DNA of 56,610 bases. Origin: an uncultured bacterium (GTDB lineage Bacteria; Patescibacteriota; Minisyncoccia; Moranbacterales; GWC2-37-73). The notes under the pieces are model-generated. The model searched no databases. It was given only the letters and a program-made list of their open reading frames with translations, and was not told the DNA's origin. Positions 1-56,610 of the stretch are shown in pieces; the stretch's first letter is position 1, and each line of letters starts with the position of its first letter. The stretch covers positions 1 through 56,610 of the forward strand of contig CAISKQ010000015.1 in assembly GCA_903885965.1 (NCBI GenBank). Reading direction: 5' to 3'. A program made the position numbers and the translations under genes.

Positions 1-140
1 AAAAGTGACATTGAAGCTGGTGAAGAAATGAGAAAAGAGAAAATGAAGGTATTTTCTAAAATTAAAGTTAACTAAATTTTTCAAAAATGCCCAATATTGT
101 AGCTTACATTTGAGGTATCATTCCTGTATTGGAATATACT
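1..140. repeat. Left copy of a 140-bp perfect terminal inverted repeat; encodes the last 24 codons (…KSDIEAGEEMRKEKMKVFSKIKVN*) of an ORF entering from outside
   Basis: Exact reverse complement of 56471-56610; identity stops at base 141. Confidence 0.95.
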
Positions 141-10099: not shown

Positions 10100-10120
10100 T
10101 TTTTTTAAAGTAAAAATCAG

Positions 10121-17346: not shown

Positions 17347-18567
17347 ATGCAAAGAGAGGAAAACCAATCAGTCAAAAATCAATCTCAGCCGCTTGCTGAC
17401 AAAATGCGTCCTCAAAATTTGGAGGATTTTTTTGGCCAGCAAGAATTGGTCGGTGAAAATTCTTTTCTGCGCAAAGCGATTTTGGATGACCAGGTCCCGT
17501 CCATGATTTTATGGGGTCCGCCTGGCTCTGGCAAAACCACCCTGGCAGCTGTAATTGCCAATGTTACTAACGCGGACTTCATCAAGATTAGTGCGGTGAC
17601 TAGCGGCATCAAGGAATTGCGCAAAACAATTGCTAAGGCCGAAGAAAATCAATGGCAAAAAAAGAAAACGATTTTGTTCGTGGATGAAATCCATCGTTGG
17701 AACAAGGCTCAGCAAGATGCCTTGCTGCCTCACGTTGAGCGTGGACTGATGACTCTTATTGGTGCAACTACTGAAAATCCCAGCTTCGAAGTCAATTCGG
17801 CGCTTGTTTCGCGCAGTCGAGTTTTTGTTTTGAATAAATTGGAAACGCCTGACTTGGAAAAAATAATCGAGAAAGCTTTGAGTGACAAAGAGAAAGGTTT
17901 GGGCAAGGAAAAAATTGAAATCACTCCTGAAATTATCAAAGAAGTTGCAATGCTTGCCAATGGTGACGCTCGCATGGCGCTGAACACCTTGGAAGCAGCG
18001 ACGAATCAAAGCAAAACAATCACCAGGGAGTTGCTCAAGCAAATTATTCAAAAATCGCATCTCTATTATGACAAAGGTGGGGAAGAACACTACAATATTA
18101 TTTCCGCCTTGCACAAATCAATGCGCGGCGGCGACCCGGATGCCAGTGTTTATTGGCTGGCCAGGATGATTGAAGGTGGGGAACAGCCGACTTATATTGC
18201 CCGCAGACTTTTGCGTTTTGCCAGCGAAGATGTGGGGCTGGCTGACAATTTTGCCTTAGTACTAGCCAACAACGTTTTCGACGCTTGCCATAAACTCGGC
18301 TATCCAGAATGCTCCGTGCATTTGGCGCAATTGGTCGTTTATCTGGCCAAAGCGCCCAAGAGTGTGAGCAGCTATTTTGCCTATAATAAGGCCAAGAAAG
18401 ACGTCGAAGAATTTGGCAACTTGCCAGTGCCGATGCATATTCGCAATGCCCCAACCAAGCTCATGGAAAAACTTGGCTACGGCAAAGGCTACAAATACAC
18501 GCCAGTTGAAGACAGTTCTGGGCAGGAATACTTACCAGTGAAACTCAAGAATAGAAAGTATCTTTAA
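17347..18567 (+). CDS. rarA: Replication-associated recombination AAA+ ATPase RarA/MgsA
   Basis: [61 protein letters not shown]. Confidence 0.95.
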
Positions 18568-18642: not shown

Positions 18643-19671
18643 ATGAACAAGGAAAAAACGAAAATAATTTCAAGCAAAAAAGATTATCATAATCTAGTTG
18701 TTGGGATTGGTGAAATTTTGTCACAAGGCAGAAAGCTTGCTTTTCAAAAAGTAAACAGCGTTTTGACGGCAACTTATTGGCAAATTGGCAAGCAGATTGT
18801 GGAATTTCAGCAAGGTGGGAAAAGACGGGCTGAGTATGGCGAGGAAATTATCAAACAACTTTCGACCGATTTAGCCAAGCGATTTGGTAAAGGTTTTTCT
18901 GCTGATAACTTAGAAAATATGCGAAGATTCTATTTGAGTTATCAAATTTCCGAAACAATGTCTCGGAAATCTTTCAAACTAAGTTGGTCACATTATTTAA
19001 AGTTGATGAGAATTAGTGATAGCGCTGAGAGAAAGTTTTATGAAATCGAATGTGAAAAGAACAGTTGGTCACTGCGAGAACTTTGTCGTCAGTTTGACAG
19101 CGCTCTTTTCGAAAGGCTGGCTTTAAGCAGGGATAAGCAAGAGGTAAAGAAACTTTCAGAAAAAGGACAGCTCATTGAAAAGCCCCAAGATATTTTCAAA
19201 GAGCCATATGTTTTAGAATTTTTGGGTCTGGATGAAAATCAGCGTTATTCAGAAAATGAATTAGAGTCAGCCCTGATTAGTAATTTAGAAAAGTTTTTAC
19301 TTGAACTCGGAAAAGGTTTTACTTTTGTGGCAAGGCAAAGGCGCATTACTAGCGGGGTGAAACATTTTTATATTGATTTGGTTTTTTATAACCGACTTTT
19401 GCAATGCTTTGTGTTGATTGATTTGAAAATTGGCGAGCTCAAGCATCAGGATCTTGGGCAAATGCAGATGTATGTGAATTATTTTGATCGCGAAGTAAAA
19501 GAAAAAAATGAAAACAGCACGATCGGAATTGTTTTGTGCAAGGAAAATGACAAGTTTGTGGTGGAATATACTTTGCCTGAAAAAAGTAGCCAAATTTTCG
19601 CCAAACAATATCAACTCTATTTACCCAAAAAGGAAGAACTGCTGGCCCAAATCAAAAAAATGGCCGGTTGA
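18643..19671 (+). CDS. DUF1016/YhcG family PDDEXK-type nuclease, paralog 1
   Basis: N-terminal YhcG-like helical region, C-terminal FYIDLVFYNRLLQCFVLIDLKIG nuclease core. Confidence 0.9.
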   Translation: MNKEKTKIISSKKDYHNLVVGIGEILSQGRKLAFQKVNSVLTATYWQIGKQIVEFQQGGKRRAEYGEEIIKQLSTDLAKRFGKGFSADNLENMRRFYLSYQISETMSRKSFKLSWSHYLKLMRISDSAERKFYEIECEKNSWSLRELCRQFDSALFERLALSRDKQEVKKLSEKGQLIEKPQDIFKEPYVLEFLGLDENQRYSENELESALISNLEKFLLELGKGFTFVARQRRITSGVKHFYIDLVFYNRLLQCFVLIDLKIGELKHQDLGQMQMYVNYFDREVKEKNENSTIGIVLCKENDKFVVEYTLPEKSSQIFAKQYQLYLPKKEELLAQIKKMAG

Positions 19672-20666: not shown

Positions 20667-20851
20667 TGAGAACCTGCTGCAAATCTCACCGCTTGAGTGA
20701 AACAATAAATACGCTTGTCGATTGAAATCTGAAAATTCCGGCTGCAAAACCTTCAAATCTCGTCGGGTTATCTCGATAGCCCTTCTCAATTTTCAGGCTT
20801 TTCGCTCGAAATTTTCAAATTTCAACTCGACATGAGATTTGCAGCAGGCTC
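20667..20851. mobile_element. MITE-like ~183-bp inverted-repeat element
   Basis: 16-bp perfect arms cctgctgcaaatctca (20673-20688) / tgagatttgcagcagg (20833-20848), further internal pairing and an apical hairpin at 20765-20782. Confidence 0.6.
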
Positions 20852-20871
20852 TAAAAATTAAAAACAAAAAT

Positions 20872-21882
20872 ATGACAAAAGAATTTTTAGCAACTCAAGA
20901 TTATCGTACCTTTATCTCGCAAATAAAACAAAGCATTAAGCGAGCCAGAAACAAAGCAATTCGGAGTGTAAATAGTGAATTGATTAGCTTATATTATAAT
21001 CTAGGCAGGCAAATTATTGAGAAACAAAAACAAACAGATTGGGGCGAAGATTTGATTGGGCAGATTGAAATGGATCTTAAGCGTGCCTTTCCAGACTCAA
21101 CAGGATTTTCCCGTAGGAATTTGAACTATATGCGCAAGTTTTACAATTTTTTTGGTAACAATGAAAAAGTGCCACAAGCTGTGGCACAAATTCCTTGGGG
21201 TCATATTCGGCTTATTTTAGACAGAATAAAGGATTATGCAGAGGCCGAATTTTATGTTCAAAAAACCATTGAAAATTCTTGGTCGCGAGTTATTTTGGAT
21301 CATCAAATTGATTTAAAATTGTATCAACGCCAAGGGAAAATTATCAGCAATTTTAAAACGACAGTGGACGCTCAGGAAGTTGCTTTAATTCAAGAAGCTT
21401 TTAAAGAAAGTTATGTTTTGGATTTTTTGGAATTAGGCGCAGACGCTAAGGAGCGAGATTTGGAAAAAGCTTTGATTGAGAACATTACCAATTTTATGTT
21501 GGAACTTGGCAAGGGCTTTGCCTTTGCGGGAAAACAATTCAAGCTCATCGTGGGCGGGCAAGAGTTTTTTGTAGATTTACTTTTTTACAATTATCTTTTG
21601 AAAAGATTCGTGGTGGTGGAATTGAAAACTACTGAATTTAAACCGCAGTATGTTGGTCAGTTAGGATTTTATTTAACGGCGATTGATCGGGATTTGAAAA
21701 AGCCGGAAGATGGAGAAACAATTGGCTTGTTGATTTGCAAAAACAAGAATAATATCGTGGTGGAATATGCCCTGGCTGGCAACAACAAACCAGCCGGTGT
21801 GGCTCAATATCAGATCTTCGCTGATTTACCAGCTGAAGTTCAAAAGTATCTGCCAACCGAAGATGAATTAAATCTTCTGTGA
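20872..21882 (+). CDS. DUF1016/YhcG family PDDEXK-type nuclease, paralog 2
   Basis: FFVDLLFYNYLLKRFVVVELKTTEFKPQYVGQLGFYL; the track start at 20839 is a TTG inside the hairpin element, ATG 20872 is more likely. Confidence 0.9.
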   Translation: MTKEFLATQDYRTFISQIKQSIKRARNKAIRSVNSELISLYYNLGRQIIEKQKQTDWGEDLIGQIEMDLKRAFPDSTGFSRRNLNYMRKFYNFFGNNEKVPQAVAQIPWGHIRLILDRIKDYAEAEFYVQKTIENSWSRVILDHQIDLKLYQRQGKIISNFKTTVDAQEVALIQEAFKESYVLDFLELGADAKERDLEKALIENITNFMLELGKGFAFAGKQFKLIVGGQEFFVDLLFYNYLLKRFVVVELKTTEFKPQYVGQLGFYLTAIDRDLKKPEDGETIGLLICKNKNNIVVEYALAGNNKPAGVAQYQIFADLPAEVQKYLPTEDELNLL

Positions 21883-24217: not shown

Positions 24218-24233
24218 TTTTCCCAAAAACCAA

Positions 24234-24596
24234 AGTCGGTTCAGCGTCTTTGTCCTGAATCGAAACTGTTCTGAATTTAAAAGTGAGAACAATCCAGTTC
24301 AAGTCGGAGACATTGAACTGACAATCAACAAAATAAAAATCCAAACATTGCAATCATAGACATATGGACAAAACTGCAATGTTTTTTGTTTTCAGAATAA
24401 GTCCTTTTAACCACATAAGGACATATTTTTTTCATGATAATTAATAACATTCTCACATTCTTGCCTGCCCTCCTTTGGAGGGAGAATGTGAGAATGTTAT
24501 TTATTAGAGAATTGAAAATTTTAGCTATCGCTAAAAATTTCAATTCTTGGTTGTCGAATTTTTGTTCTTTCTACCATTCGACCATATATGGTAGAG
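24234..24596 (+). repeat. Multi-hairpin noncoding array, copy A
   Basis: Shares with copy B a 43-nt identical block (24286-24328) and several hairpin modules. Confidence 0.85.
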
Positions 24597-24701
24597 GGGA
24601 TTTTTCTTTAGTGGGTGAAGATCTCAGGGTAGTTGATTTTGCTGGCTTTTGGTGGTATTTTTAGGTGAGGAAATAATGAGGTAAAATAAGCGATAAAAAC
24701 T

Positions 24702-25304
24702 ATGAACAAAATCAAGGCAATTCTATTGGATGCTGATGGGTTGGTTTTCAAAAAGCAGCGCTATTTTAGTGAGATTTTTGCTGAGCAATATGGCGTTTCA
24801 AAAGATTTGATTTTGCCATTTTTCAAGACCAATTTTAGGCAGTGCCAAGAAGGCACGGTTGATTTGAAAGAAGAATTGAAACCATTTTTGAAGCAGTGGA
24901 ATTGGGAAGGGACAGTGGAAAGCTTTCTTGATTTCTGGTTTTCCTTTTGTGTAGCTGATGAAGAAGTTCTGAAAGTCGTGCGCCAATTGAGAGCAAAAGG
25001 CTATAAATGCTATTTGGTGACCGACCAAGAAAAATATCGCGGGCAGTATATCAAGAAAAATTTGAAACTGGAAAATGAGTTGGATGGATTTTTCTATTCT
25101 TTCGAGCTCAAGTCTTCAAAATCAGAAAAAGAATTTTATGAGAAAATTTTGAAAGAACTTAATCTTGCTCCAGAAGAAGTAATGTTTTTTGATGATGAAG
25201 ATGAGAATGTCGAAATTGCCAGTGAACTTGGAATTCAATCGGTTCTTGTAAGTGGAGCGGCGGATTTTGAGAAAGCTGTACAAAAAAATCTTTATAAATA
25301 TTAA
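24702..25304 (+). CDS. HAD-superfamily hydrolase
   Basis: AILLDADGLVF N-terminal motif; VMFFDDEDENVEIASELGIQSVLV. Confidence 0.85.
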   Translation: MNKIKAILLDADGLVFKKQRYFSEIFAEQYGVSKDLILPFFKTNFRQCQEGTVDLKEELKPFLKQWNWEGTVESFLDFWFSFCVADEEVLKVVRQLRAKGYKCYLVTDQEKYRGQYIKKNLKLENELDGFFYSFELKSSKSEKEFYEKILKELNLAPEEVMFFDDEDENVEIASELGIQSVLVSGAADFEKAVQKNLYKY

Positions 25305-25353
25305 AATATTGAGCTGGCTTGGGTTAATTTATATAAAAATTAGCAATAAAAAT

Positions 25354-26358
25354 ATGATTATAGGTATAATTGGAACTGGTTTTGGAAAAACAATTGCACA
25401 AACCTTTCGAGCTGTCGACAAGGATTGTGGGATATTTTTATGTGGCTCAGATAAGGAAAAAACAAAGAAAATTGCTGCTGAAATCGGCGTTCAAGTCATT
25501 GAAAAATGGCAGGATTTAATTCTGCGACCAGAGATTGATCTTGTGGTAATAGCTACTCCAAGCAGTTTACATAAAAAGATGTTTGAAGCAATCATCAAAC
25601 GAAACAAGCATATTTTACTTGAAAAGCCAGCAGCTACTACGGCTCAAGATGTAAGAGATATGCTTACTTTAACTAGGAATTATCCAAAAATTGTTGTCAT
25701 CAATCACGAAGCTAGATTCAATCCAATTATTGCTTGTATAAAAAATTATATTGAAAGTAATAAACTTGGAGATATATTAACAATTAGAATTGGAGCTTAC
25801 ACTAATCTTTTTTCAGATAAAAATTATAGTGGAAGTTGGTATAATTCCAAGAAACTAGGGGGGGGTCAGCTACTTGCCATGGGCACTCATCAGATAGATT
25901 TAGCGAGATATTTGCTCAATATGCCTGAAATTGAAAAAGGTGCAATTTTTACCTCAAGCTATAATAATCCTAATTTTACGGAAAAAGTTGATGCAGAATC
26001 TCAATTTTCTGGGAACTTAATGACGGCGAGCGGAACTTGTATTGAATTTTTTAATGACGCTTATTGTTTCGGCGGAAAAGATTTTATTATAGAAGTCATA
26101 GGAAGCCGTGGCATAATAAAATACAGTGATACGCAAGGTTTGAAAGTTAGTTTTGCAAATGACCAAGCCCTAACTGAAATCCAGCTGGAGGATTCTATGC
26201 CTGATATCAAACTTGGAAGTTCAATTTTGACAAAATCTTTGAAGTTTTTTGTAAAAGAAATAATAGAATCAATTGAAAAGAATAAGCCTAATCAAAAATT
26301 TTGCAGTCTCCAGGTTGCTAATGACAACCTTGAAATTATTGAGAGATTCAAAATTTAA
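25354..26358 (+). CDS. Gfo/Idh/MocA family oxidoreductase
   Basis: Rossmann GIIGTGFGKTIAQTF; EKPAATTAQDV; GGGQLLAMGTHQIDLARYLL. Confidence 0.9.
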   Translation: MIIGIIGTGFGKTIAQTFRAVDKDCGIFLCGSDKEKTKKIAAEIGVQVIEKWQDLILRPEIDLVVIATPSSLHKKMFEAIIKRNKHILLEKPAATTAQDVRDMLTLTRNYPKIVVINHEARFNPIIACIKNYIESNKLGDILTIRIGAYTNLFSDKNYSGSWYNSKKLGGGQLLAMGTHQIDLARYLLNMPEIEKGAIFTSSYNNPNFTEKVDAESQFSGNLMTASGTCIEFFNDAYCFGGKDFIIEVIGSRGIIKYSDTQGLKVSFANDQALTEIQLEDSMPDIKLGSSILTKSLKFFVKEIIESIEKNKPNQKFCSLQVANDNLEIIERFKI

Positions 26359-26406
26359 ATGTAAAATTTTTTAAAAATAGTTGGTGAGCAATTTCTGAAA
26401 ATTCCC

Positions 26407-26678
26407 AGTCGGTTCAGGGTCTTTGCCATGCCGGTCCGCCTTTGGAGGAAATCGAAACAGTTCTAAATTTTAAAACAAGAACAATCCAGTTCAAGTCGGA
26501 GACATTGAACTGACAATCAAACATTGCAATCATACGCATATGGCTAAAATTGCAATGTTTTTTTTAAAGTTTCTTCGATATAAGTCCATTCAACCACATA
26601 AGGACTTTTTTTATTTTCTCTACAATTCGACCATATAAGATAGAGTTGAAAATTTTAGTTATCGCAATAATTTTCAAC
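26407..26678 (+). repeat. Multi-hairpin noncoding array, copy B
   Basis: Same orientation as copy A; 43-nt identical block at 26478-26520, two hairpin modules in swapped order. Confidence 0.85.
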
Positions 26679-26799
26679 TCTTTTAATTTTTTCGCAGTAA
26701 TCTAGCCAAAAACCTCTCGAAAAAGAGATTGCAAATTCTACCTATGCGACTTTTTGCAATACTTTTTATGGTTGGAAATATCGCCTCTCTGAGCCAAAT

Positions 26800-26849: not shown

Positions 26850-27740
26850 ATGATGAACGAACTTATTAATATCAAAGTGATTCAAAAGGATTTCAACGGC
26901 GAGAAAAAAAGATTTGTAAACGCCAGGGAACTTTACAGATGGTTGGGGGTGGGCAGAGACTTTTCTACTTGGATAAAAGATAGAATTATTAAATATGATT
27001 TTGTGGAAGATTTAGATTATTTTACATCCATCCCCAAATTGGGGGATGGAAAAGTTGGCTCAAATAAAGCAAAAGTTAAGGACTCTAAAACTGGCCGAGT
27101 TGTTGCCAAAGACTATATTATTTCTGTGGATATGGCCAAGGAATTGGCGATGATTGAAAATAGCGAGATTGGCAAAAAAGTCAGAAAATATTTTATCAAA
27201 GTGGAAAGCGATTTCAAAAAAGTTATGCAAATTGCCACAAGGGATCCGAAATTCATTAATCAGCTAGCTAGCCAATTTTTCGAGACACGCGAGGAAACAA
27301 AAGAATATCGCCGAGATTTTACGGACTGCGTCAAGGATTTTGTGGAAGTGAAAAATTATGGAACTTATACAGATATGCTGTATAATTTTCTTTTTTTGGA
27401 AAGAGCCAAAGAATATCGCAAGCTTTTAAAGCTGGTGAAAAAAGATTTGACGAGGAATTTTATGTATGAGGAAATTGTTTTGATCGTGGGTGCTTTTGAA
27501 ACTGGCTTGGCTGGGGAAGTGGAAAAAGAATTCAAAAAACTACAAAGAATGTTAACGCAGATTGAGTTTGAGAGAATTTTCAAAGAATTTTCTGCTCAAA
27601 GAAATTGGCTGGTCTATCAAAAAAGAGCCAGAAATATTATGGCAACTTATGACGAAGAACTTCGCCGAATCAAGCATCCAAAACTGATTAATTATAAAAA
27701 AGAATTCAGTCAGGATGATATCCAAAAATTGTTGAGTTAG
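26850..27740 (+). CDS. AntA/AntB-type phage antirepressor-like protein with unknown C-terminal domain
   Basis: VNARELYRWLGVGRDFSTWIKDRI…DYFTSIPK…KDYIISVDMAKELAMIENSEIGKKVRKYFIKVE. Confidence 0.85.
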   Translation: MMNELINIKVIQKDFNGEKKRFVNARELYRWLGVGRDFSTWIKDRIIKYDFVEDLDYFTSIPKLGDGKVGSNKAKVKDSKTGRVVAKDYIISVDMAKELAMIENSEIGKKVRKYFIKVESDFKKVMQIATRDPKFINQLASQFFETREETKEYRRDFTDCVKDFVEVKNYGTYTDMLYNFLFLERAKEYRKLLKLVKKDLTRNFMYEEIVLIVGAFETGLAGEVEKEFKKLQRMLTQIEFERIFKEFSAQRNWLVYQKRARNIMATYDEELRRIKHPKLINYKKEFSQDDIQKLLS

Positions 27741-27825: not shown

Positions 27826-30800
27826 TTAGAAACGGTCCTTCTCTTTAATAAAAGTCATATACAAGGTTGGGATGATAAAGAGAGTAAAGAAGGATGAAAT
27901 GGAAAGTCCGAAGATGACGGCGGAGCCGAGGGCGGTCCAGGTGGCGTTGGAAAGGGTGATGGGGATGATGCCGGCGATGGTGACGATAGAAGTTATGAAG
28001 ATTGCTTCCAAGCGAGATTTGCCGGCATCGATGATGGCTTCTTCAAAGGGAATACCGGTTTTGATGTTGAGGTTGATTTTGTCAATCAAGATGATGGCGT
28101 TTTTCACTACGATGCCGAAGAGTGCCAAGATGCCAATCAGTCCTGGGAAGCTCAAGGTGACTCCCAAAAGCGCCATGCCAACAAACACTCCGATCAGGGC
28201 CAAAGGCAACGTGACAAGCACAATAATGGCCTTGCGGAAGGAATTAAATTGAATCACCAACGTTGAAATAATCAGCACGACCGCAATGGCCATGGCTCGA
28301 ATAATGGACATCACTGATTCAGTGTTTTGTTCGTTTTCACCGCCATAACTAATTGCATAACCTTCTGGCAATACATATTGAATAGCAAGTTTATCTTGAA
28401 ATTCTTTGACCACTTGGGTGGCATTAGTTGTGCCAGACACATCAGCTGTTAGCAGCACTGTTCTTTTTTGGTCAATGCGATTAATGGCATCCACGGAAGG
28501 GTTTAGTTTGATTTCCGCCACGTCCTTGATGAACACAGGCTGCTTTTTGTTGCTCAAAATTTGCAAATTTCCAATGCTTTCCAGATTTGGAATTTTTGTT
28601 TTGTCAAAACGAGCTAGCACGTCAATATTTTTGTTTTCTCGAATAACGGTGGTCACCGTGGTGCCGGAAATTGCACTGCGCAGGGCCAAGCCGACAGTGG
28701 TGGCGTTTAAATCATAAAGTTCCAGCTTGGCATGATCTAAGGAAAAGGTGTATTCAGCTGGTGCATCTTTCAGAGAAATGTCAGCGTTGATGGTGCCAGG
28801 AATGGAATTTAAAATCGGCTTCAAATCATTGGCAATCTTGTCCAACGTTTGCAAATTTTCTCCCGCAATCTGCGCTTGAAAAGCACTGCCAGAAGGCGGT
28901 CCACCTCTTGGCGCCGAAACCGTGATAGTGGCGTCTTGAATGTTGGCAACTGCATCGCGGATTTCTTGCGCAATGTCATAGGCCTTGATGTTGCGGCTTT
29001 CTTGAGGACTGAGCTTGATAGTGATGGAAGCAGTGTTTGATTTGTTGGAACCTCCACCACCAAGAGAAGAACCACCAGAGCCAGGGTTGCCAACAATGGT
29101 TGAAAAATTCACAATATTTGAAATTTTCAAAACTCTCTTTTCAACTTCTTGGGTGATTTGATCAGTCTGGTTGAGATTAAGCCCCACTGGTCCTTCAATG
29201 TTCAAATAAAGAGCATCGCCATCAGCAGGCGGAAAAAATTCAGACTTGACCACGCCCGTGATTGGCAGAGCAATGGCAAAAACAAACAAAGCTAAAGTTG
29301 AAAATAAAGTCACCAGGCGACGTTTTTTGCTTGAAGTTGCCAGACGCAAATATTTTTCATAGACAGGTAAAACCTTGTCAAAATGCACAATTCCGTGAAT
29401 AAGTTTGCTGCCAAAAGTTGCATCTTCATGCTTGCCTTGCAAGAGCAATTTTTCTTTGATCAGTTCATCACTAGCCCATTCTTTTTCGGAAAGCTCAAAA
29501 TTGGCTTGCAGAGTTTGTTTGCCTTTTTCAAAATACCAAACAAGCAGCCAACAAATTATCACAAAAGAAACTGTCGCAAGAACGTAGCCAAAAATTGAAT
29601 GTTGGGTCACGCCAATTAAGCCTACTAATAAAGTAGAGATTAAAATCAGGGCGAAGAATTTTTTGGTCAAACGAATTCTTTCGAGCACGGCTGCCAATGG
29701 GTGATTAATCATCAGCGCAATCAGCAGTGAGGAAACCAAGGTCACTGAAACCGTGATCGGAATTGATTTGATGAATTGTCCCATGATGCCAGAAGCCAGC
29801 AACAGCGGTAAAAAAGCCCAGACCGTGGCAAAGGTGGTGGAAACAAGCACAATTTTGAAATCATTAAGCACCAACAGCACCGCTTCTTCGGGGGTGTATT
29901 TGCCAGTCTTCATATATTGCTTGGTAGCTGAAACCACCACAATGGCGTCATCCACCAAAAGTCCCAAGGAAAGTAGTAAGGCAAAAATCGAAAGGAAATT
30001 GAGGGAAGTTCCGGTGACTTGCATCACTCCGAAAGTAGTAAAGAACACTAATGGAATTGCCAAGCCTGCCACGAAAGCTTCTTTAAGCCCCACAATCAAA
30101 AACAAAATTCCCACCACTAAAATCAAAGTGAGCAAAAAGTCATGAGTGAGTTGGTTGAAATCTTTTTCGATGCGATCAGCTTGATTGACCGTGTCGGAGA
30201 AAGTGATGCCTTCTGGAAAAGTTTTTAGCAGTTCATTGATTTTTGCCTGCGAGTTTTTCACAGTGTTGATGATGCTGCCACCAGTTCTTTTGACCACTTG
30301 CAAGGTGACGGCATTTTGCGGAGCTTTGCCGTCCATTGAAAAACGAGAATAAATGGTTTTTTCGATGGATTTTTCGGAAACTGTTGCAATATCTTTCAGA
30401 TAAACAATAGCGCCTTGCTGAGTGTGGGAAATTGGAATTTCGCCCAGGGTTTTGGCGTCATAAAATCTTCCATCAGAGCGGACGGGATAGTTAAACTGAC
30501 TGCCTTCAAAATTGCCAGCTGGAATTGCGCGATTGGTGGCAGCAATAGCTCCGTTAGCTTGATCAGTGCTGATGCCAAAAAGCGCAAGTTTGCCAGGATC
30601 ATAGGCTACTTCAAACTGACTTTGATCGCCGCCGGAAATCTTCACTTCTCGAACGCCAGGAATTTTTTCCAATTCATCTTGAATTTTTTCGCCATAAGTT
30701 CGCAGCGTGAAACCATCATAGGGCCCAACCAGGGCAAAAGTCACAATTGGCGTGTCATCCAAGGAAATTTCTTGCACCTGGGGATCATTAGCGTCTGCTG

Positions 30801-31245
30801 GAATGTCTTTTCGAATGGTTGTCAATTTGTCTCGCAATTTCCTGACGGCATCGTCCACATTTTGATTGGCATCGAATTCAACCACCACGCTGGAAAAAGA
30901 ATTAGCAGAAGTAGAAGTGATTTTGTTGATGCCACTGACTCCAGAAATGTCTGTCTCAATTTTTTTGGTTACCAACTCTTCCATGTCAGAAGGGGACACG
31001 CCGGGATAGGAAGCGCTAACAATGGCCATCGCAATTTTGACTTCCGGATTTGATTCGCGAGGAAGTTGCGAGAAAGCATAAATTCCCCAGCCAGAAATCA
31101 ACACGATTAGCAAGATGACCACGCGAAAATTTGCCACAAAAAAATTCAGCCAAGTCTTACGAAGTTCAGGATTAAATTTCAATTTATCAAGATAGGCACT
31201 GTCGGTGGATTGAAAAGTTTTCTTTGGTTGTTCTTGATTTTCCAT
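27826..31245 (-). CDS. RND efflux transporter (AcrB/HAE1-like)
   Basis: 1139 aa; LSLGLLVDDAIVVVSATKQYMKTG, SAPRGGPP, GLIGILALFGIVVKNAIILID. Confidence 0.95.
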   Translation of the reverse strand: MENQEQPKKTFQSTDSAYLDKLKFNPELRKTWLNFFVANFRVVILLIVLISGWGIYAFSQLPRESNPEVKIAMAIVSASYPGVSPSDMEELVTKKIETDISGVSGINKITSTSANSFSSVVVEFDANQNVDDAVRKLRDKLTTIRKDIPADANDPQVQEISLDDTPIVTFALVGPYDGFTLRTYGEKIQDELEKIPGVREVKISGGDQSQFEVAYDPGKLALFGISTDQANGAIAATNRAIPAGNFEGSQFNYPVRSDGRFYDAKTLGEIPISHTQQGAIVYLKDIATVSEKSIEKTIYSRFSMDGKAPQNAVTLQVVKRTGGSIINTVKNSQAKINELLKTFPEGITFSDTVNQADRIEKDFNQLTHDFLLTLILVVGILFLIVGLKEAFVAGLAIPLVFFTTFGVMQVTGTSLNFLSIFALLLSLGLLVDDAIVVVSATKQYMKTGKYTPEEAVLLVLNDFKIVLVSTTFATVWAFLPLLLASGIMGQFIKSIPITVSVTLVSSLLIALMINHPLAAVLERIRLTKKFFALILISTLLVGLIGVTQHSIFGYVLATVSFVIICWLLVWYFEKGKQTLQANFELSEKEWASDELIKEKLLLQGKHEDATFGSKLIHGIVHFDKVLPVYEKYLRLATSSKKRRLVTLFSTLALFVFAIALPITGVVKSEFFPPADGDALYLNIEGPVGLNLNQTDQITQEVEKRVLKISNIVNFSTIVGNPGSGGSSLGGGGSNKSNTASITIKLSPQESRNIKAYDIAQEIRDAVANIQDATITVSAPRGGPPSGSAFQAQIAGENLQTLDKIANDLKPILNSIPGTINADISLKDAPAEYTFSLDHAKLELYDLNATTVGLALRSAISGTTVTTVIRENKNIDVLARFDKTKIPNLESIGNLQILSNKKQPVFIKDVAEIKLNPSVDAINRIDQKRTVLLTADVSGTTNATQVVKEFQDKLAIQYVLPEGYAISYGGENEQNTESVMSIIRAMAIAVVLIISTLVIQFNSFRKAIIVLVTLPLALIGVFVGMALLGVTLSFPGLIGILALFGIVVKNAIILIDKINLNIKTGIPFEEAIIDAGKSRLEAIFITSIVTIAGIIPITLSNATWTALGSAVIFGLSISSFFTLFIIPTLYMTFIKEKDRF

Positions 31246-34104: not shown

Positions 34105-37100
34105 ATGGAAAAAATAATTGAAGAAATATTGGGCGATCTTTATGCGTTGGATAAAGATTTGATTCAATATGATAAAGCCTTGAGAAAAGCCATTGAAAAA
34201 ATAATTGAATCGAAACCAGATACCAAGTTTGATGAAAATTTCAAACTCAGGCTTCGGGGTGAATTGATGGAAAAAGTTAGACAGCTAAAAAATTCTGGCG
34301 AGAAAAAAACTTTTCAAAAAAGATTCAGCATTGTCTTGGAACATTTTTCAGTTTTCCTTGGTCAATTTTCACAAAGTCGCTGGGCGCTTGCTTTGCCAAT
34401 GTTGATTTTGGTTGTCGGGGTGGCCTTTTTTGTGCAAAGACAATACAGTCAAAATGGGGGAGTTTATTTGACCAAGCAAAATGTCAGCTTTGCTCTTTCG
34501 CCAACGAAAGTTGACCCTGCCGGCATTGAGCCGGACACCAGTTTCGTGCTTAAAAGTTCCAAAGATTTGCCGGAAGCGACCATTAAAAAAACTTTAAGCT
34601 TCAAACCCGAGACTGATTTTTCGGTTACCAAGGTCAAAAAAACGGCAATGCTAGCACTGCCAGCTTTGGCAGCCGAGCAAACAAATGCTCAGGATTTGCC
34701 TTATCAATATGAAATCAAAACTACGGGCGAATTGGAAAAGGGCAAGGTTTATCAAATTGCCATCAAAAATGATCAAATTGCTGATCGCAATTATCAGTGG
34801 GCTTTCCAAGTCAAGGCACCTTTTGGGGCAGTAGAATCTTTTCCAGCTAGTCATACCACAAACGTGCTCCTTAACACAGGGATTGAAGTTCAACTTAATC
34901 GCAGCTTACCAGAAGGAGCTGAAAAATATTTTGAAATTTCACCGAAAGTGGAAGGGACTTTTGAAATCAAAATGGACAAACTTTATTTCCATCCGAAAGG
35001 ATTAACTGAAAAGAAAATTTATACCGTGACACTTAAAAAGGGTTTAACTTCGAAAGATGATGGGGAAGTTTTAAATGAAGATTATGTTTTTGCTTTTGAA
35101 ACTGACACCAAGGATAATCAATCTGCCAAGAATGGAGTTTCATTTTGGACTAACAAAAAAGTTATTGAAGCAACTTCAGATATTCATCCAATGATTGATG
35201 TTTTCGACAATGCTGAAAATGCTAAGAGCGAGCTTGAAGTAAAATTATATGCCCTCAATGGTGAAGATGAATTCATGCAATCATATCAGGCAAGTAAAAA
35301 TTGGGATTTTGCTTGGTCGCAATATGCCAAAGAAAAGGAAGTGAATTCTTTTAAGCCTGGTGAAGACAGGAAAACCTTTTCGGCCAAAGGAAAATTGGTA
35401 ACTGGTAGTCCGGTTGCGAATCAGTATTTCGAAGTGCCAGAAAATCTTAAGGATGGTTATTATTTCTTTGAGCTTAGCAGGGGAAAAGACAGCGATTATG
35501 GTTGGATTGTGGTTTCTAAGATTGCGCAATACACTTCTTTGGCTGGAAACTCCGGTTTGATGTGGGCCTATGATTTTCCTGCTCAAAAACCTTTGCAAGA
35601 GGCTGAGATTTTCTTTGTAGAACAAAATAAAAATGAGCAAAAAATTGGAAAGCTTGATGGCGGCGGACTTTTGAATTTTTCTTTGCCAGAAGCGCTAAAG
35701 ACTAATAGTAAAAATAGCGCTAATTATGGTCCGCAATTTTTCAAAATCTCTGCACCAGGTTTTCAATCAAAGGTGATAATTGCCAATGAAAATGCTGATC
35801 AAGTTGAACAGGGAAAACGTTTCTGGGAAAAACTTTCCACAGACAAAAATAAATATCGACCGAATGACACAATCAATTTTTGGGGTGTGTTGAAAGGACG
35901 CAATAAAAATATTCAAAATGAAAAAGTCACAGTGGAGCTGAATGAATGTGTTTGGGGTGGAGCAGTCTCCAAGAAATTGCCACTTGTGTCTCAGCAACTT
36001 TCAATTTCAAAATTCGACACAGTTAGCGGCAGCTTGAAGCTTCCCGAAGTTGGCGTGGGAAATTATTGTCTGTTGATTGTTAGTGAAGATAAAAAAGAAA
36101 CTTATAGCTCAACTTCGCTTGAGGTGGCTACTTATGAGAAACCAGCTTATCAGCTTTCAGTTGAAACCTTTCCTAAGGCGGTTTTCACAGGGCAAGAAGT
36201 AATTCTAAAAGTGAAGGCTAGTTTCTATGACGGAACGCCAGTTTCAAAGCTAAAATTGAAATATGATTCAGAGGGTCAAATATTGAACAATCGAAATATT
36301 TCACCAGAAAATGAATTTAACGATAAAACTTCTGGCGTTCTTACTTTGGATGAAAATGGAAGCGGCGAAGTTAAAATCACGCCCAAGAAAAATGAAAAAA
36401 GCACAGTTGTGAAAGATTACAGCGAGATATCTTTCGTGCCAGTGATGGCCGAGGAAGGTGATATTTCTCAACAATTGACTGTCGATGTTTTCAACTCTGC
36501 AATGGCGCTGGACGCTCAAGTCGAGGAAGGTGAAAAAGGAAAATTTGAAGTGACTGCCAAAGTCAATAAAATCGATCTTGCTAAGGGTCAGGCCGAGCAA
36601 GCAAAAAATTCCGCAAGTTTTCCTTGGATGGGTGATTTGACTGCCTATCTTAGTGATCCAGTTGCTGATTATAAAATCGAAGGTCAATTGGTCAAAATAA
36701 CTCAGGAAAAAATTGAATTTGGGGAGCACTATGACTATATCACCAAAACCCAAATTAAAGATTATAACTATAAGCAGAAAGAAGAAAACGTGGAAAAGTT
36801 TGATGGCAAAACCGACCAGCAGGGGCAATGGAAGTTCACGAAAAAAATTGAAAACAATGATCCGATGGTTTCTTATAAAATTATTTTTAGTGCAGTCGAC
36901 CAGCAAGGCAGGAAATTTTCTCAAGAAGTTTATCTGTATAGCGGACCAAGTCTTTATGGCCAGGTTGAACTTTCAATTAATCAGGATTATTTTTCTGTCG
37001 GAGACAAAGTCAAACTTCAATTGAAAGAAGCTTCTCAAGAGGATAAATCACTGGACAATAAAACTCTTTTTTATCGTTATCAAAATGATATTGACCAAGC

Positions 37101-39396
37101 TGTGGTCAAGGATGGAAAAGATTTTGAAGAGATTTTTGAGGAACAATTTGCCCCCTCAACAAAATATATGGGTGTGATCTTAACAGCCTATGGTTTTCAA
37201 GAAAGTTCTTGGGCAATAGCCCAGCAAAAAGAAGAAGATAAGGAGCTTTCCATTGAAATCAAACCGGAAAAAGAGCAATATCGTCCTGGAGAGCAGGTCC
37301 AAGCTCAAATAGCAATCAAGGACAAGGCAGGTAAGCCAGTTTCAACGCAAGTAAATGTGGCAGTGGTTGATGAGGCACTTTTCCAAAATGATGATCAATC
37401 TTCGGACAAGGATTTATTGGAAAATCTTTATGCCCCAATTTATAGTGTCTCTCCAATCTCTGCTTACACTCAATATATGGATCGCAGGCCAGGTGGCGGT
37501 GCTGGAGGCGGTGGCGAACCTCGCAGTGTTTTCTTGGATGTGCCATATTTCCAAAACCTGGAAACTGATGCTAATGGGAAGGCGATGGCTTCGTTTACAT
37601 TGCCAGATAATTTGACTGGTTGGAGAATTACGGCCAAAGCTTTTGATACCAAAGCGATGACTGCTGGTCAAACGCATGAAATAATTTCAACCGGTTTGCC
37701 ATTTTTTGTAGACGTAACACTGAATCCAATTTATCTGACAGGGGACAGTCCTCAATTGAAGCTACGTTTCTTCGGTAAAGACTATGATCCAAATCAACCA
37801 GTTGAATTTTCAATTGCTTCAAAAGATTTTGTGATCAGGCAAACTGGAAGCACTAAAGATTCAACGCAATATCTTTCACTTGGAGCTTTGCCAAAAGGTG
37901 AATATGAAATCAAAATCAGTGCCAAGCAAGGAGAAAAAAATGATTCCCTGATCAGAAAAATTGTAGTTAAAGATAGTTATTTTGAAAAAACAGAAAGTCG
38001 CTCCTATCAAGTTTCGCAAGACTTGAAAAACCTTAAAGCCAATGATTCAGGTTTCACGAAAATTGTTTTTGCCGACAAGGGCAAGGGAAAATATTTTTCA
38101 ACCTTGGTTAATAATGTTGAAGATGGCGGTGCTCGCTTGGATCAAATGGTTGCGGCCTATGTATCAAAAAAACTCTTAGCGCAAGAATACTATGGAAGCA
38201 AATTTAATGAGGATTTGGACACAGAAAGTTTTAATAAAGATTATTTGGGACTTAGCTTGTTTACCTATGGCGACGCAAATTTGGAAGTTTCAGCCAAGGT
38301 CGCTGATGCTTCAGTAAACTCAATCAACAAGGATGCCCTGAAGAGCTATTTTAATCAATCTTTGTATGATTCAAAGGCCGACATTCATCGCATTTCCAAA
38401 TCCTTATATGGTCTGGCTTCAATTGGTCAGCCAGTGCTTAACAAGATTAATATCGTGAAAGAAAACAAAAATGAGTTAGCCATTGATGATAAAATTTATC
38501 TTGGGTTGGCTCTGGCAAAAAGCGGCGACCTGGAAGGAGCTAGACAATATTATGAAAATGAAATCAAAGGAGCAACCAAAGTGGATGGACAGCAAGCTTG
38601 GCTTGAAAGTGGTAACATTCCAATTGAACCAGAAAAATTAACCGCCACGCTTGGGATGTTGGCTGCCGATGTTAGTGATCAAGCTATGCTAGAAAAGATT
38701 TGGAACTATCTCGATAGCCACAATCCCAAAAGAGATTTGATAGTTTTGGAAAAAGCTATTATCGTCGAGTCTCAACTTGCTCAAATTCCAAAGCAACAAG
38801 CAAGTTTCAATCTCAAAACCAACAAGAGGAATGAAAAAATTTCTCTTGATGGGCAAGGAGTTGCTATTGTCATGCTTGCACGTGAGGAAATGGATTCTCT
38901 CAGCTTCAGTGATGTCAAAGGTAATATTGAAGCAGTTAGTGTCTTTGAAAATGATGCCAAGGATAAGCTTCAAAATGATGCTAGTCTGAAATTGACTCGC
39001 GCTTATAAACTAGGTGAGACTCAGACTGCAAAGTTTGCAGAGGGCGATGTGGTTAAAATCACTTTAAGCGCACAATTTTTGCCAGGCACTCCGAAAGGCG
39101 AATATCAAATCAAAGACATTTTGCCTAGCGGGCTTAAGCCAATCGTAAACAGTCAATTTGATGTTTTTGATTTTGCTGAAAGAGAAAAGCAATGCGAAGT
39201 GGTTCGCAATCCTGACAAAGTTGATGGCAATCAGATTTATTTCAGTTTCCAAAATCAGTGTGCCAATTTCACAGTTAGTTTTTATGCCAGGGTTATTTCC
39301 AAGGGAACCTTTAAAGCAGATTCAGCAACGCTCCAATCAATTGAAAACTTGGAAAAATATTTTGTAACCCCGACTGAACAAATCGAAATTAGATAA
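34105..39396 (+). CDS. Membrane-anchored alpha-2-macroglobulin family protein with cytosolic N-terminal domain
   Basis: ~90-aa cytosolic part, one TM (WALALPMLILVVGVAFFV), MG-type repeats, SVFLDVPYFQNLETDANGKAMASFTLPDNLTGWRITAKAFD A2M domain. Confidence 0.88.
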   Translation: MEKIIEEILGDLYALDKDLIQYDKALRKAIEKIIESKPDTKFDENFKLRLRGELMEKVRQLKNSGEKKTFQKRFSIVLEHFSVFLGQFSQSRWALALPMLILVVGVAFFVQRQYSQNGGVYLTKQNVSFALSPTKVDPAGIEPDTSFVLKSSKDLPEATIKKTLSFKPETDFSVTKVKKTAMLALPALAAEQTNAQDLPYQYEIKTTGELEKGKVYQIAIKNDQIADRNYQWAFQVKAPFGAVESFPASHTTNVLLNTGIEVQLNRSLPEGAEKYFEISPKVEGTFEIKMDKLYFHPKGLTEKKIYTVTLKKGLTSKDDGEVLNEDYVFAFETDTKDNQSAKNGVSFWTNKKVIEATSDIHPMIDVFDNAENAKSELEVKLYALNGEDEFMQSYQASKNWDFAWSQYAKEKEVNSFKPGEDRKTFSAKGKLVTGSPVANQYFEVPENLKDGYYFFELSRGKDSDYGWIVVSKIAQYTSLAGNSGLMWAYDFPAQKPLQEAEIFFVEQNKNEQKIGKLDGGGLLNFSLPEALKTNSKNSANYGPQFFKISAPGFQSKVIIANENADQVEQGKRFWEKLSTDKNKYRPNDTINFWGVLKGRNKNIQNEKVTVELNECVWGGAVSKKLPLVSQQLSISKFDTVSGSLKLPEVGVGNYCLLIVSEDKKETYSSTSLEVATYEKPAYQLSVETFPKAVFTGQEVILKVKASFYDGTPVSKLKLKYDSEGQILNNRNISPENEFNDKTSGVLTLDENGSGEVKITPKKNEKSTVVKDYSEISFVPVMAEEGDISQQLTVDVFNSAMALDAQVEEGEKGKFEVTAKVNKIDLAKGQAEQAKNSASFPWMGDLTAYLSDPVADYKIEGQLVKITQEKIEFGEHYDYITKTQIKDYNYKQKEENVEKFDGKTDQQGQWKFTKKIENNDPMVSYKIIFSAVDQQGRKFSQEVYLYSGPSLYGQVELSINQDYFSVGDKVKLQLKEASQEDKSLDNKTLFYRYQNDIDQAVVKDGKDFEEIFEEQFAPSTKYMGVILTAYGFQESSWAIAQQKEEDKELSIEIKPEKEQYRPGEQVQAQIAIKDKAGKPVSTQVNVAVVDEALFQNDDQSSDKDLLENLYAPIYSVSPISAYTQYMDRRPGGGAGGGGEPRSVFLDVPYFQNLETDANGKAMASFTLPDNLTGWRITAKAFDTKAMTAGQTHEIISTGLPFFVDVTLNPIYLTGDSPQLKLRFFGKDYDPNQPVEFSIASKDFVIRQTGSTKDSTQYLSLGALPKGEYEIKISAKQGEKNDSLIRKIVVKDSYFEKTESRSYQVSQDLKNLKANDSGFTKIVFADKGKGKYFSTLVNNVEDGGARLDQMVAAYVSKKLLAQEYYGSKFNEDLDTESFNKDYLGLSLFTYGDANLEVSAKVADASVNSINKDALKSYFNQSLYDSKADIHRISKSLYGLASIGQPVLNKINIVKENKNELAIDDKIYLGLALAKSGDLEGARQYYENEIKGATKVDGQQAWLESGNIPIEPEKLTATLGMLAADVSDQAMLEKIWNYLDSHNPKRDLIVLEKAIIVESQLAQIPKQQASFNLKTNKRNEKISLDGQGVAIVMLAREEMDSLSFSDVKGNIEAVSVFENDAKDKLQNDASLKLTRAYKLGETQTAKFAEGDVVKITLSAQFLPGTPKGEYQIKDILPSGLKPIVNSQFDVFDFAEREKQCEVVRNPDKVDGNQIYFSFQNQCANFTVSFYARVISKGTFKADSATLQSIENLEKYFVTPTEQIEIR

Positions 39397-55385: not shown

Positions 55386-55423
55386 AATATGCTATTTCCC
55401 GCATATGCGGGAAATAGCATATT
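55386..55423. repeat. 38-bp perfect palindrome 1
   Basis: AATATGCTATTTCCCGCATATGCGGGAAATAGCATATT. Confidence 0.97.
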
Positions 55424-55489
55424 AGATAAATAGGTAAAAAGAAAATATAGAATTGCATGTCCGCATAGTAAGCTTTCGTGCATATTAGT

Positions 55490-55527
55490 AATATGTTAAT
55501 TCTGGCATATGCGGGAATTAACATATT
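55490..55527. repeat. 38-bp palindrome 2 (two mismatched pairs)
   Basis: AATATGTTAATTCTGGCATATGCGGGAATTAACATATT. Confidence 0.95.
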
Positions 55528-55637
55528 GTCTGATTTTGGAAAATACAATATAATTAAGGAAAAAAGAGTGAGGAAAAAATAAAAAAGCGAAGGAAATAAA
55601 AAGAATAAGCAAGCTAGAAAAAATAAAATAAAAATGT

Positions 55638-56294
55638 ATGGCTGAAAAAAAGAAAAAGAAAATTCATAAAAAAGAAGTTTCAAATAAAATACCAATAAAA
55701 GAACGGTTGGAGAATTTTTTCTATTCTGACACCCCAACCGCTACTGCCACAAAGTTCTTATTGATGTTTGTTGGCATTGGTGTAATTGTTTGTGGCGGGG
55801 CAATTGTGCCAGGCATTTTAAAGGTGATTGATGAATTTGGGATGCCTGAAGAAAAATCAAAAAAATATTCTCGCAAGCAACTTGATAATGCCTTTGCTCA
55901 CTTAAAGCGACAAAAACTGGTGGAAATAATCAAGGAAAAAGATGGTAAGATGCATGTGAAGCTTACCAATAAAGGTAAAAAGAGAATGGTCGAATTTTCA
56001 ATTGATACTTTGAAAATAAAAAAACCAAAGAAATGGGATAAAAAGTGGCGGGTGCTTATGTTTGATATTCCTACTAAGCCGAAAATATACAATCAAGCTC
56101 GCGAAGCTTTGAGATCAAAAATAAAGGAACTCGGATTTTTTCAAATGCAAAAGAGTGTTTGGGTTTGTCCCTTTGAATGTGAAGACGAGCTTTTGTTTGT
56201 GGCTGAGTTATACCATGTGGAAAAATATATTGAAGTTCTCACCGTGGAAAAACTTTTGCATGAAAGTATCCTTAAAAGAAAATTTAGACTTTAG
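55638..56294 (+). CDS. Cas2/PaaX-C-like protein with N-terminal TM and winged-helix region
   Basis: FLLMFVGIGVIVCGGAIVPGIL TM; RKQLDNAFAHLKRQKLVEII wHTH; KWRVLMFDIPTKPKIYNQAREALRSKIKELGFFQMQKSVWVCPFECEDEL Cas2-like fold. Confidence 0.8.
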   Translation: MAEKKKKKIHKKEVSNKIPIKERLENFFYSDTPTATATKFLLMFVGIGVIVCGGAIVPGILKVIDEFGMPEEKSKKYSRKQLDNAFAHLKRQKLVEIIKEKDGKMHVKLTNKGKKRMVEFSIDTLKIKKPKKWDKKWRVLMFDIPTKPKIYNQAREALRSKIKELGFFQMQKSVWVCPFECEDELLFVAELYHVEKYIEVLTVEKLLHESILKRKFRL

Positions 56295-56337
56295 TTTGAA
56301 TTGCGAAATTTTTTTATTTGTATTTTTTTTATTCATA

Positions 56338-56375
56338 AATATGCTAAATCCCGCATATGCGGGATTTAGCATATT
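56338..56375. repeat. 38-bp perfect palindrome 3
   Basis: AATATGCTAAATCCCGCATATGCGGGATTTAGCATATT. Confidence 0.97.
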
Positions 56376-56456: not shown

Positions 56457-56470
56457 TTGACGCGTCCGCA

Positions 56471-56610
56471 AGTATATTCCAATACAGGAATGATACCTCA
56501 AATGTAAGCTACAATATTGGGCATTTTTGAAAAATTTAGTTAACTTTAATTTTAGAAAATACCTTCATTTTCTCTTTTCTCATTTCTTCACCAGCTTCAA
56601 TGTCACTTTT
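56471..56610. repeat. Right copy of the 140-bp terminal inverted repeat
   Basis: Exact reverse complement of 1-140. Confidence 0.95.

Follow-up and report, generated by a model that had tools for sequence, protein, structure and literature searches.

Background

Short palindromes that are dispersed and clustered between genes, and that are tied to a gene with the same palindromes on both of its sides, have been described as the REP and REPIN sequences and their RAYT genes (PMC3116915, PMC3733652). The palindromes analysed here resemble that system in being extragenic, dispersed and clustered, and in their link to a palindrome-flanked gene, but the linked genes encode PaaX_M or TrpR-like proteins instead of Y1 transposases (PF01797), each genome contains many palindrome families with different cores, and the hosts are Patescibacteria. 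These bacteria have small genomes, the repeats and mobile elements of which have, to our knowledge, been little described.

Integrons share with the present loci an arrangement in which genes are separated by imperfect palindromes beside the gene of a DNA-acting protein, as well as a turnover of gene content, but most of the PaaX loci hold no extra gene, and the palindromes also occur upstream of the linked gene. MITEs are comparable in that they too are gene-less palindromes with relatives at the ends of an element that bears a gene; here, in contrast, there is no recognised transposase, and target-site duplications are not defined. A search of the open-access literature, which retrieved the work on REP and RAYT, found no published link of PaaX, Cas2-like or TrpR-like genes with palindromes, and the kind of element considered in this work, in which mobile palindromes gather where genes come and go, looks undescribed.

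Results

The two arrays and the genes between them

The window, by which is meant the whole analysed stretch of 56,610 nucleotides, is contig C15 of G000, a genome of 1.27 Mb in 67 contigs for which Candidatus Moranbacteria (phylum Patescibacteria) are the nearest relatives with a name, and it contains two arrays of hairpins, A and B, in the same orientation on the plus strand. The identical block of 43 nt that an initial annotation had seen in both was located at 24286-24328 in array A and 26478-26520 in array B, with a chance expectation of 0 matches when up to 3 mismatches are allowed. The six hairpin modules which that annotation described as shared, the swapping of the last two and the extra hairpin of array A were all confirmed.

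M1 is a REPIN-like inverted pair of GTCGGTTCA..TGAATCG and CAGTTCAA..TTGAACTGAC units (the cggttca...tgaatcg and cagttcaa...ttgaactg hairpins) and occupies 24233-24322 in array A and 26407-26514 in array B, where a CCTCC-type palindrome is inserted in it. M2, a hairpin with arms CATTGCAA...TTGCAATG and a core of the CATATG type, lies at 24342-24387 and 26517-26564, and M3, a GTCC...GGAC palindrome (AAGTCCATTCAACCACATAAGGACTT in array B), at 24395-24432 and 26576-26612. The order of the other two shared modules is reversed between the arrays: M5 (TTGAAAATTTTAG[CT]TATCGC, core GCTATCGC in array A) precedes M6 (TCTAC...ATTCGACCATAT...GTAGA, TCTACCATTCGACCATATATGGTAGA in array A) at 24507-24548 and 24567-24597 in array A, and follows it, at 26640-26683 and 26616-26646, in array B. 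Array A alone has M4, the extra AACATTCTCACATTC hairpin at 24445-24499, in the loop of which a second small palindrome is nested at about 24462-24481, and array B is longer than first described, with a seventh palindrome, M7 (ATTGCAAATTC..CTATGCGACTTTTTGCAAT), at 26720-26766. Arrays A and B comprise at least six independent palindrome families. The genes between the arrays are, as originally annotated, those of a HAD-like hydrolase (24702-25304, plus strand) and a Gfo/Idh/MocA oxidoreductase (25354-26358, plus strand), the latter of which also adjoins the HAD gene in G004.

Dispersal and nesting of the palindrome families

Five genomes of the same genus (G001 to G005) were searched beside G000, all of them metagenome assemblies in many contigs, and in these fragmented assemblies palindromes coincide with contig ends in some places. 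Array sequence has 13 to 24 matching places per genome in G001 to G005 and occurs in 15 of the 57 genomes searched (G000 counted), reaching as far as other families in the order, so that one local duplication does not account for the arrays. In the part of G000 that was sampled, the modules and palindromes related to them account for 52 located copies, and further clusters of palindromes besides A and B are found on contigs C57 (two), C59 and C45. Arrays in the relatives reuse the modules in other orders, such as M5-M7-M1-M2-M3-M4 in G003 and M6-M5-M7-M1-M2-M3-M5-M7 in G004, with a remnant of M6 visible by eye ahead of the second M5 of the G004 array.

Single families differ in their range. 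M1 copies are dispersed in G000 and all five relatives of the genus, and M4 is dispersed in G000, G003, G023 and G029, the loop insert being missing in G003. Copies of M5 were counted with a model built from M5 copies, which was used for sequence only because its consensus has no base pairs; about 18 were found in G004 and about 6 in G003, both of which have an M5-type PaaX gene, and 2 to 5 in each of the other four genomes. Palindromes are also nested in one another: the CCTCC type lies in the M4 loop as well as within M1 of array B, and G001:C67 has copies of an eighth family, M8, inside its M1 doublets.

A sequence of 140 nt which stands at both contig ends of the window (1-140 and 56470-56610) also ends about 10 other contigs of G000, and is a long, assembly-breaking repeat, probably an insertion sequence.

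Genes paired with the palindromes

Five of the seven modules elsewhere flank small genes, which encode PaaX_M proteins in the case of M2, M5 and M7 and Trp-repressor-like proteins in that of M3 and M6. M2 flanks a gene for a 213-aa PaaX_M protein in G000:C66, and runs of M5 (4 + 3 copies) flank a 208-aa PaaX_M gene in G004:C40, the related PaaX_M genes of G003:C14 and G012:C5 being likewise flanked by M5. M7 resembles the palindromes that flank PaaX-like genes in G003:C18, G004:C38 and G005:C68, with an 83-90% match over 31-36 nt. The palindrome flanking a TrpR-like gene (PF01371) in G020:C31 is identical to M6 of array A over 27/27 nt, and that flanking a TrpR-like gene in G009:C6, a relative of M3 of array A, is identical to M3 of array B over 26/26 nt. 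M8 is paired with a PaaX_M gene inside the window (element 55386-56375, plus strand): the gene, at 55638-56294, encodes 218 aa (PF20803, E 8e-20) and has M8 palindromes upstream at 55386-55423, over its likely promoter at 55490-55527, and downstream at 56338-56375. A linked gene was found for neither M1 nor M4. The four genes assigned to the Trp_repressor family PF01371 score 44-62 bits against a gathering score of 27, and it is on these four only that the TrpR-like pairing rests.

Contig C66 of G000 also encodes a 194-aa protein of unknown function (L109 10888-11591) with identical CACCCTGGTAGTTGGTAACTGCCAGGGTC palindromes on both sides; this may be a palindrome-linked gene of a third kind.

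The PaaX-like proteins score 63.6-74.7 bits with PaaX_M (PF20803), for which the gathering score is 24, and only 22-30.5 bits with the PaaX equivalog model TIGR02277, for which the cut-off is 264.55. An AlphaFold2 model of the window protein has a mean pLDDT of 80.7, the values exceeding 90 in the Cas2-like part and being low near the N-terminus. In a fold comparison it matches E. coli PaaX best (E 3e-5) and Cas2 structures next, these with weak E-values. The protein has the winged helix and Cas2-like domain of the PaaX phenylacetate repressor, but it differs from that repressor in its length of about 200 aa, in being encoded by multi-copy genes with palindromes on both sides, and in falling far below the NCBIfam PaaX cut-off. 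It has in common with Cas2 the fold and the invariant FD.. R.. Q.S residues, but its Cas2-like part is fused to an N-terminal winged-helix region, and palindrome pairs instead of CRISPR arrays stand in the flanks examined. In the alignments G113, W133, D134, R138, D143, R155, Q171 and S173 (numbered as in the window protein) are invariant, and a catalytic role is possible. An origin from a phage or plasmid was rejected as far as phage and plasmid records go, in which nothing matches the window PaaX protein.

Generality of the pairing

PF20803 genes are multi-copy, the roughly 80 matches being spread over 25 of 39 genomes, and the pairing was evaluated by comparing the 500 nt on each side of a gene. 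By this measure, which also picks up non-palindromic repeats, a few of them resembling duplicated coding sequence, 60 of 71 PaaX_M genes from Moranbacteria and related Patescibacteria share a repeat between their two flanks with a score above 18, the 95% quantile of 94 control ORFs (mean 12.6), and in a second set a score of 20 was reached by 48 of 74 PaaX genes and by 1 of 74 control ORFs (Fisher P ~2e-18), the control ORFs being matched neither in gene family nor in intergenic length. The second set spans Parcubacteria and one Microgenomates genome, and it overlaps the first in some of the Moranbacteria loci. Within G000, a survey of 469 kb of sampled stretches found a shared flank repeat at 24 of 422 ORFs. 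Every PaaX gene (4) and TrpR-like gene (2) of these stretches is among the 24, and a fifth PaaX gene, which G000 has on C47, is likewise flanked.

The identity of the palindrome follows the relatedness of the protein. The palindrome centre, which may be CATATG, CGRTCG, CTATAG, CCATGG or CGGCCG among other motifs, is the same as that of the nearest protein relative of less than 80% identity in 59 of 80 cases, compared with a fraction of 0.26 (maximum 0.46 in 2000 shuffles) when the labels are shuffled. Just two palindromes are present at 66 of 89 PaaX loci, few of which enclose other genes, and the median distance is 39 nt from the upstream copy to the start codon and 35 nt from the gene to the downstream copy.

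Presence, absence and exchange at orthologous sites

M1 is absent from the window near position 10100, single at the orthologous site in G005 and in tandem there in G004. At the site of the PaaX element of G000:C47, G005:C74 carries a PaaX element whose clade and palindrome are both different, and no PaaX element is present at the matching site in G003:C8. In G000:C58, where a gene is followed by palindrome, PaaX, palindrome, MurI and palindrome, the element is one that was not found at the matching sites of G003 and G005, and the order in G004:C37 is PaaX, palindrome, CDPS, palindrome, MurI, palindrome. The CDPS of G004:C37 (L245 959-2386), in which a cyclodipeptide synthase is joined to a solute-binding-protein domain, lies between P58 palindromes. 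A methyltransferase gene between M2 copies beside the PaaX gene of that family is found only in G000. Different genes between copies of one palindrome, as in the MurI/CDPS and methyltransferase cases, are rare overall.

Several PaaX elements, that of M8 in the window included, stay in place across sister species. RAYT genes are mostly single-copy while their repeats spread, and the PaaX loci resemble them in mixing position-stable elements with elements that differ among genomes. No target-site duplication or clean excision product could be defined at the presence/absence sites, and at the single M5/M8 site of G000:C59 the surroundings are too diverged for the insertion ends to be defined.

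A hotspot of gene turnover between rarA and an RND pump gene

Arrays A and B lie in a region of 9.3 kb in G000 which is bordered by rarA, encoding a MgsA-like ATPase (17347-18567, plus strand), and by the gene of an AcrB-type RND pump (27826-31245, minus strand), with an AntA-type antirepressor gene (26850-27740, plus strand) directly 3' of array B. The contents of the corresponding region differ among the relatives: it consists of nothing but an M4-M5-M6 array of about 0.4 kb in G005 and of a single YhcG gene in G002, while G004 has another gene set and several pieces of array on the right-hand side of rarA, and the region is divided among contigs in G003. Neither G004 nor G001 yielded the RND pump gene. 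Of the five relatives, only G003 and G004 have homologues of the HAD gene. The AntA gene adjoins the pump gene in G000 and G003 and in G002 lies elsewhere, again behind an array; its G001 orthologue is at the same alternative place, at a contig end. A promoter leader is common to AntA and one YhcG gene.

Because the modules recur in the genome and in its relatives, and because the gene content varies at the arrays, the alternative of two sole copies around genes that are syntenic in all relatives fails. The suggestion that the arrays are recombination-prone boundaries is partly supported, because they lie in a turnover hotspot and one relative has one short array there: gene content does change at the arrays between close relatives, and it is the driver of the exchange that we infer.

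Between rarA and array A are two genes for YhcG/DUF1016 PDDEXK nucleases (18643-19671 and 20839-21882) together with DUF4145 and TrmB-like genes, a content resembling that of a defence island. Elsewhere in the window, 34105-39396 encodes an alpha-2-macroglobulin-like protein of 1763 aa with a Big_5 domain.

Discussion

We consider it rather probable that arrays A and B are gene-less copies of dispersed palindromes which have piled up at a turnover locus, and that most of the families have their mother gene elsewhere. A mother element consists of a small gene with the same palindrome on both sides, and its protein, either PaaX_M (winged helix with a Cas2-like domain) or Trp-repressor-like, would probably bind its own palindrome and may mobilise the palindromes. 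Gene-less copies would pile up between rarA and the RND pump gene, where recombination between array copies, if it is array homology that drives the exchange, would exchange, delete or insert the HAD, Gfo, AntA and YhcG genes. The palindromes may be moved by the protein linked to them, by another transposase or through homologous recombination, and if the mover is something else, the PaaX-like and TrpR-like proteins may do no more than bind them as operators. Against a reading as mobile palindromes it must be said that neither PaaX_M nor TrpR-like proteins are known transposases, that M1 and M4 have no linked gene, that positional stability in sister species fits a domesticated regulator, and that the upstream palindrome is, by inspection, often placed over the promoter in the manner of an operator.

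A serious rival, which we nevertheless judge somewhat unlikely, is a regulon model in which PaaX-like and TrpR-like repressors act at the palindromes as operators, and in which the dispersed copies are immobile sites of the regulon. Both families include known repressors with winged-helix or HTH domains, several loci are syntenic, and the median distance of 39 nt from the upstream palindrome, which often lies over a promoter, to the start codon would fit an operator; but palindromes also stand directly downstream of the gene, and E. coli paaX is without such repeat flanks. Also against the model are the head-to-tail runs of palindromes (7 copies in G004:C40), the copies inside M1 doublets (G001:C67), the clustering with other families, and the elements that are present, absent or swapped at orthologous sites.

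A second rival, which we regard as unlikely, is that the repeats are of the REP/REPIN type and moved by Y1 (RAYT or IS200-like) transposases, with the link to PaaX and TrpR secondary. M1 is like a REPIN in being an inverted doublet that ends in (T)GTC (its stem and loop are other than those of the published CGTC families of REP), Y1_Tnp genes are present in all six genomes of the genus, and one M1 copy abuts an IS200-like remnant in G000:C38; but M1 flanks none of the Y1 genes of the genus, and M2, M3, M5, M6, M7 and M8 instead flank PaaX-like or TrpR-like genes. As owners of the modules the Y1 genes were rejected, those of the six genomes being without any of M1 to M8 on both sides. As a separate matter, both full-length Y1-transposase-like genes of G000 (L073 1337-2035 on C19 and L074 175-894 on C30) contain an in-frame GGGACTAAGTCCCCAATTGGGGACTTAGTCCC palindrome in the coding sequence, and a further GGGACTAAGTCCCCAATTGGGGACTTAGTCCC copy follows the gene on C19.

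It is a doubtful extension of the mobile-palindrome reading that Patescibacteria have a so far undescribed class of mobile element, in which the Cas2-like PaaX_M protein would recognise its palindrome, move it and enclose neighbouring genes between the copies, as an integron-like system built on a Cas2 relative without Cas1. That the palindromes are recombination sites proper and the PaaX/Cas2-like protein a cassette-inserting recombinase seems to us quite improbable. The alternation of genes and palindromes beside PaaX in G000:C58 (MurI) and G004:C37 (CDPS, MurI), the methyltransferase gene peculiar to G000 and the Cas2-like fold are what such a recombinase would account for, and genes flanked by one palindrome family beside a PaaX/Cas2-like gene do exist, so that the initial comparison of the arrays with attC sites, made in spirit, was a fair functional guess. 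Homologous recombination between repeats gives the same pattern, however, and the predominance of loci with two copies and the scarcity of enclosed genes speak against cassettes. We know of no integrase activity of Cas2 by itself. Among the annotated hotspot genes there is no IntI-type integrase, and no attC core was noticed by eye.

The remaining proposal of the initial annotation, a structured RNA of 250-350 nt or a series of terminators, is very improbable in spite of the T-runs after M2 and M3 and of folding better than that of shuffled sequences (z -9.3 for array A and -4.4 for array B), as the palindromes are independent of one another and found singly and reordered, the window has 0 Rfam matches at gathering thresholds, and terminator-like sites number 2 compared with 1.8 in shuffles, in a scan limited to loops of 3-8 nt that would miss long-loop hairpins.

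Conclusions

The pairing of palindromes with DNA-binding proteins is a testable candidate for a means of gene gain and loss in Patescibacteria. It suggests that the Cas2 fold may also work without Cas1, and it yields a family-wide set of predicted pairs of proteins and DNA sites.
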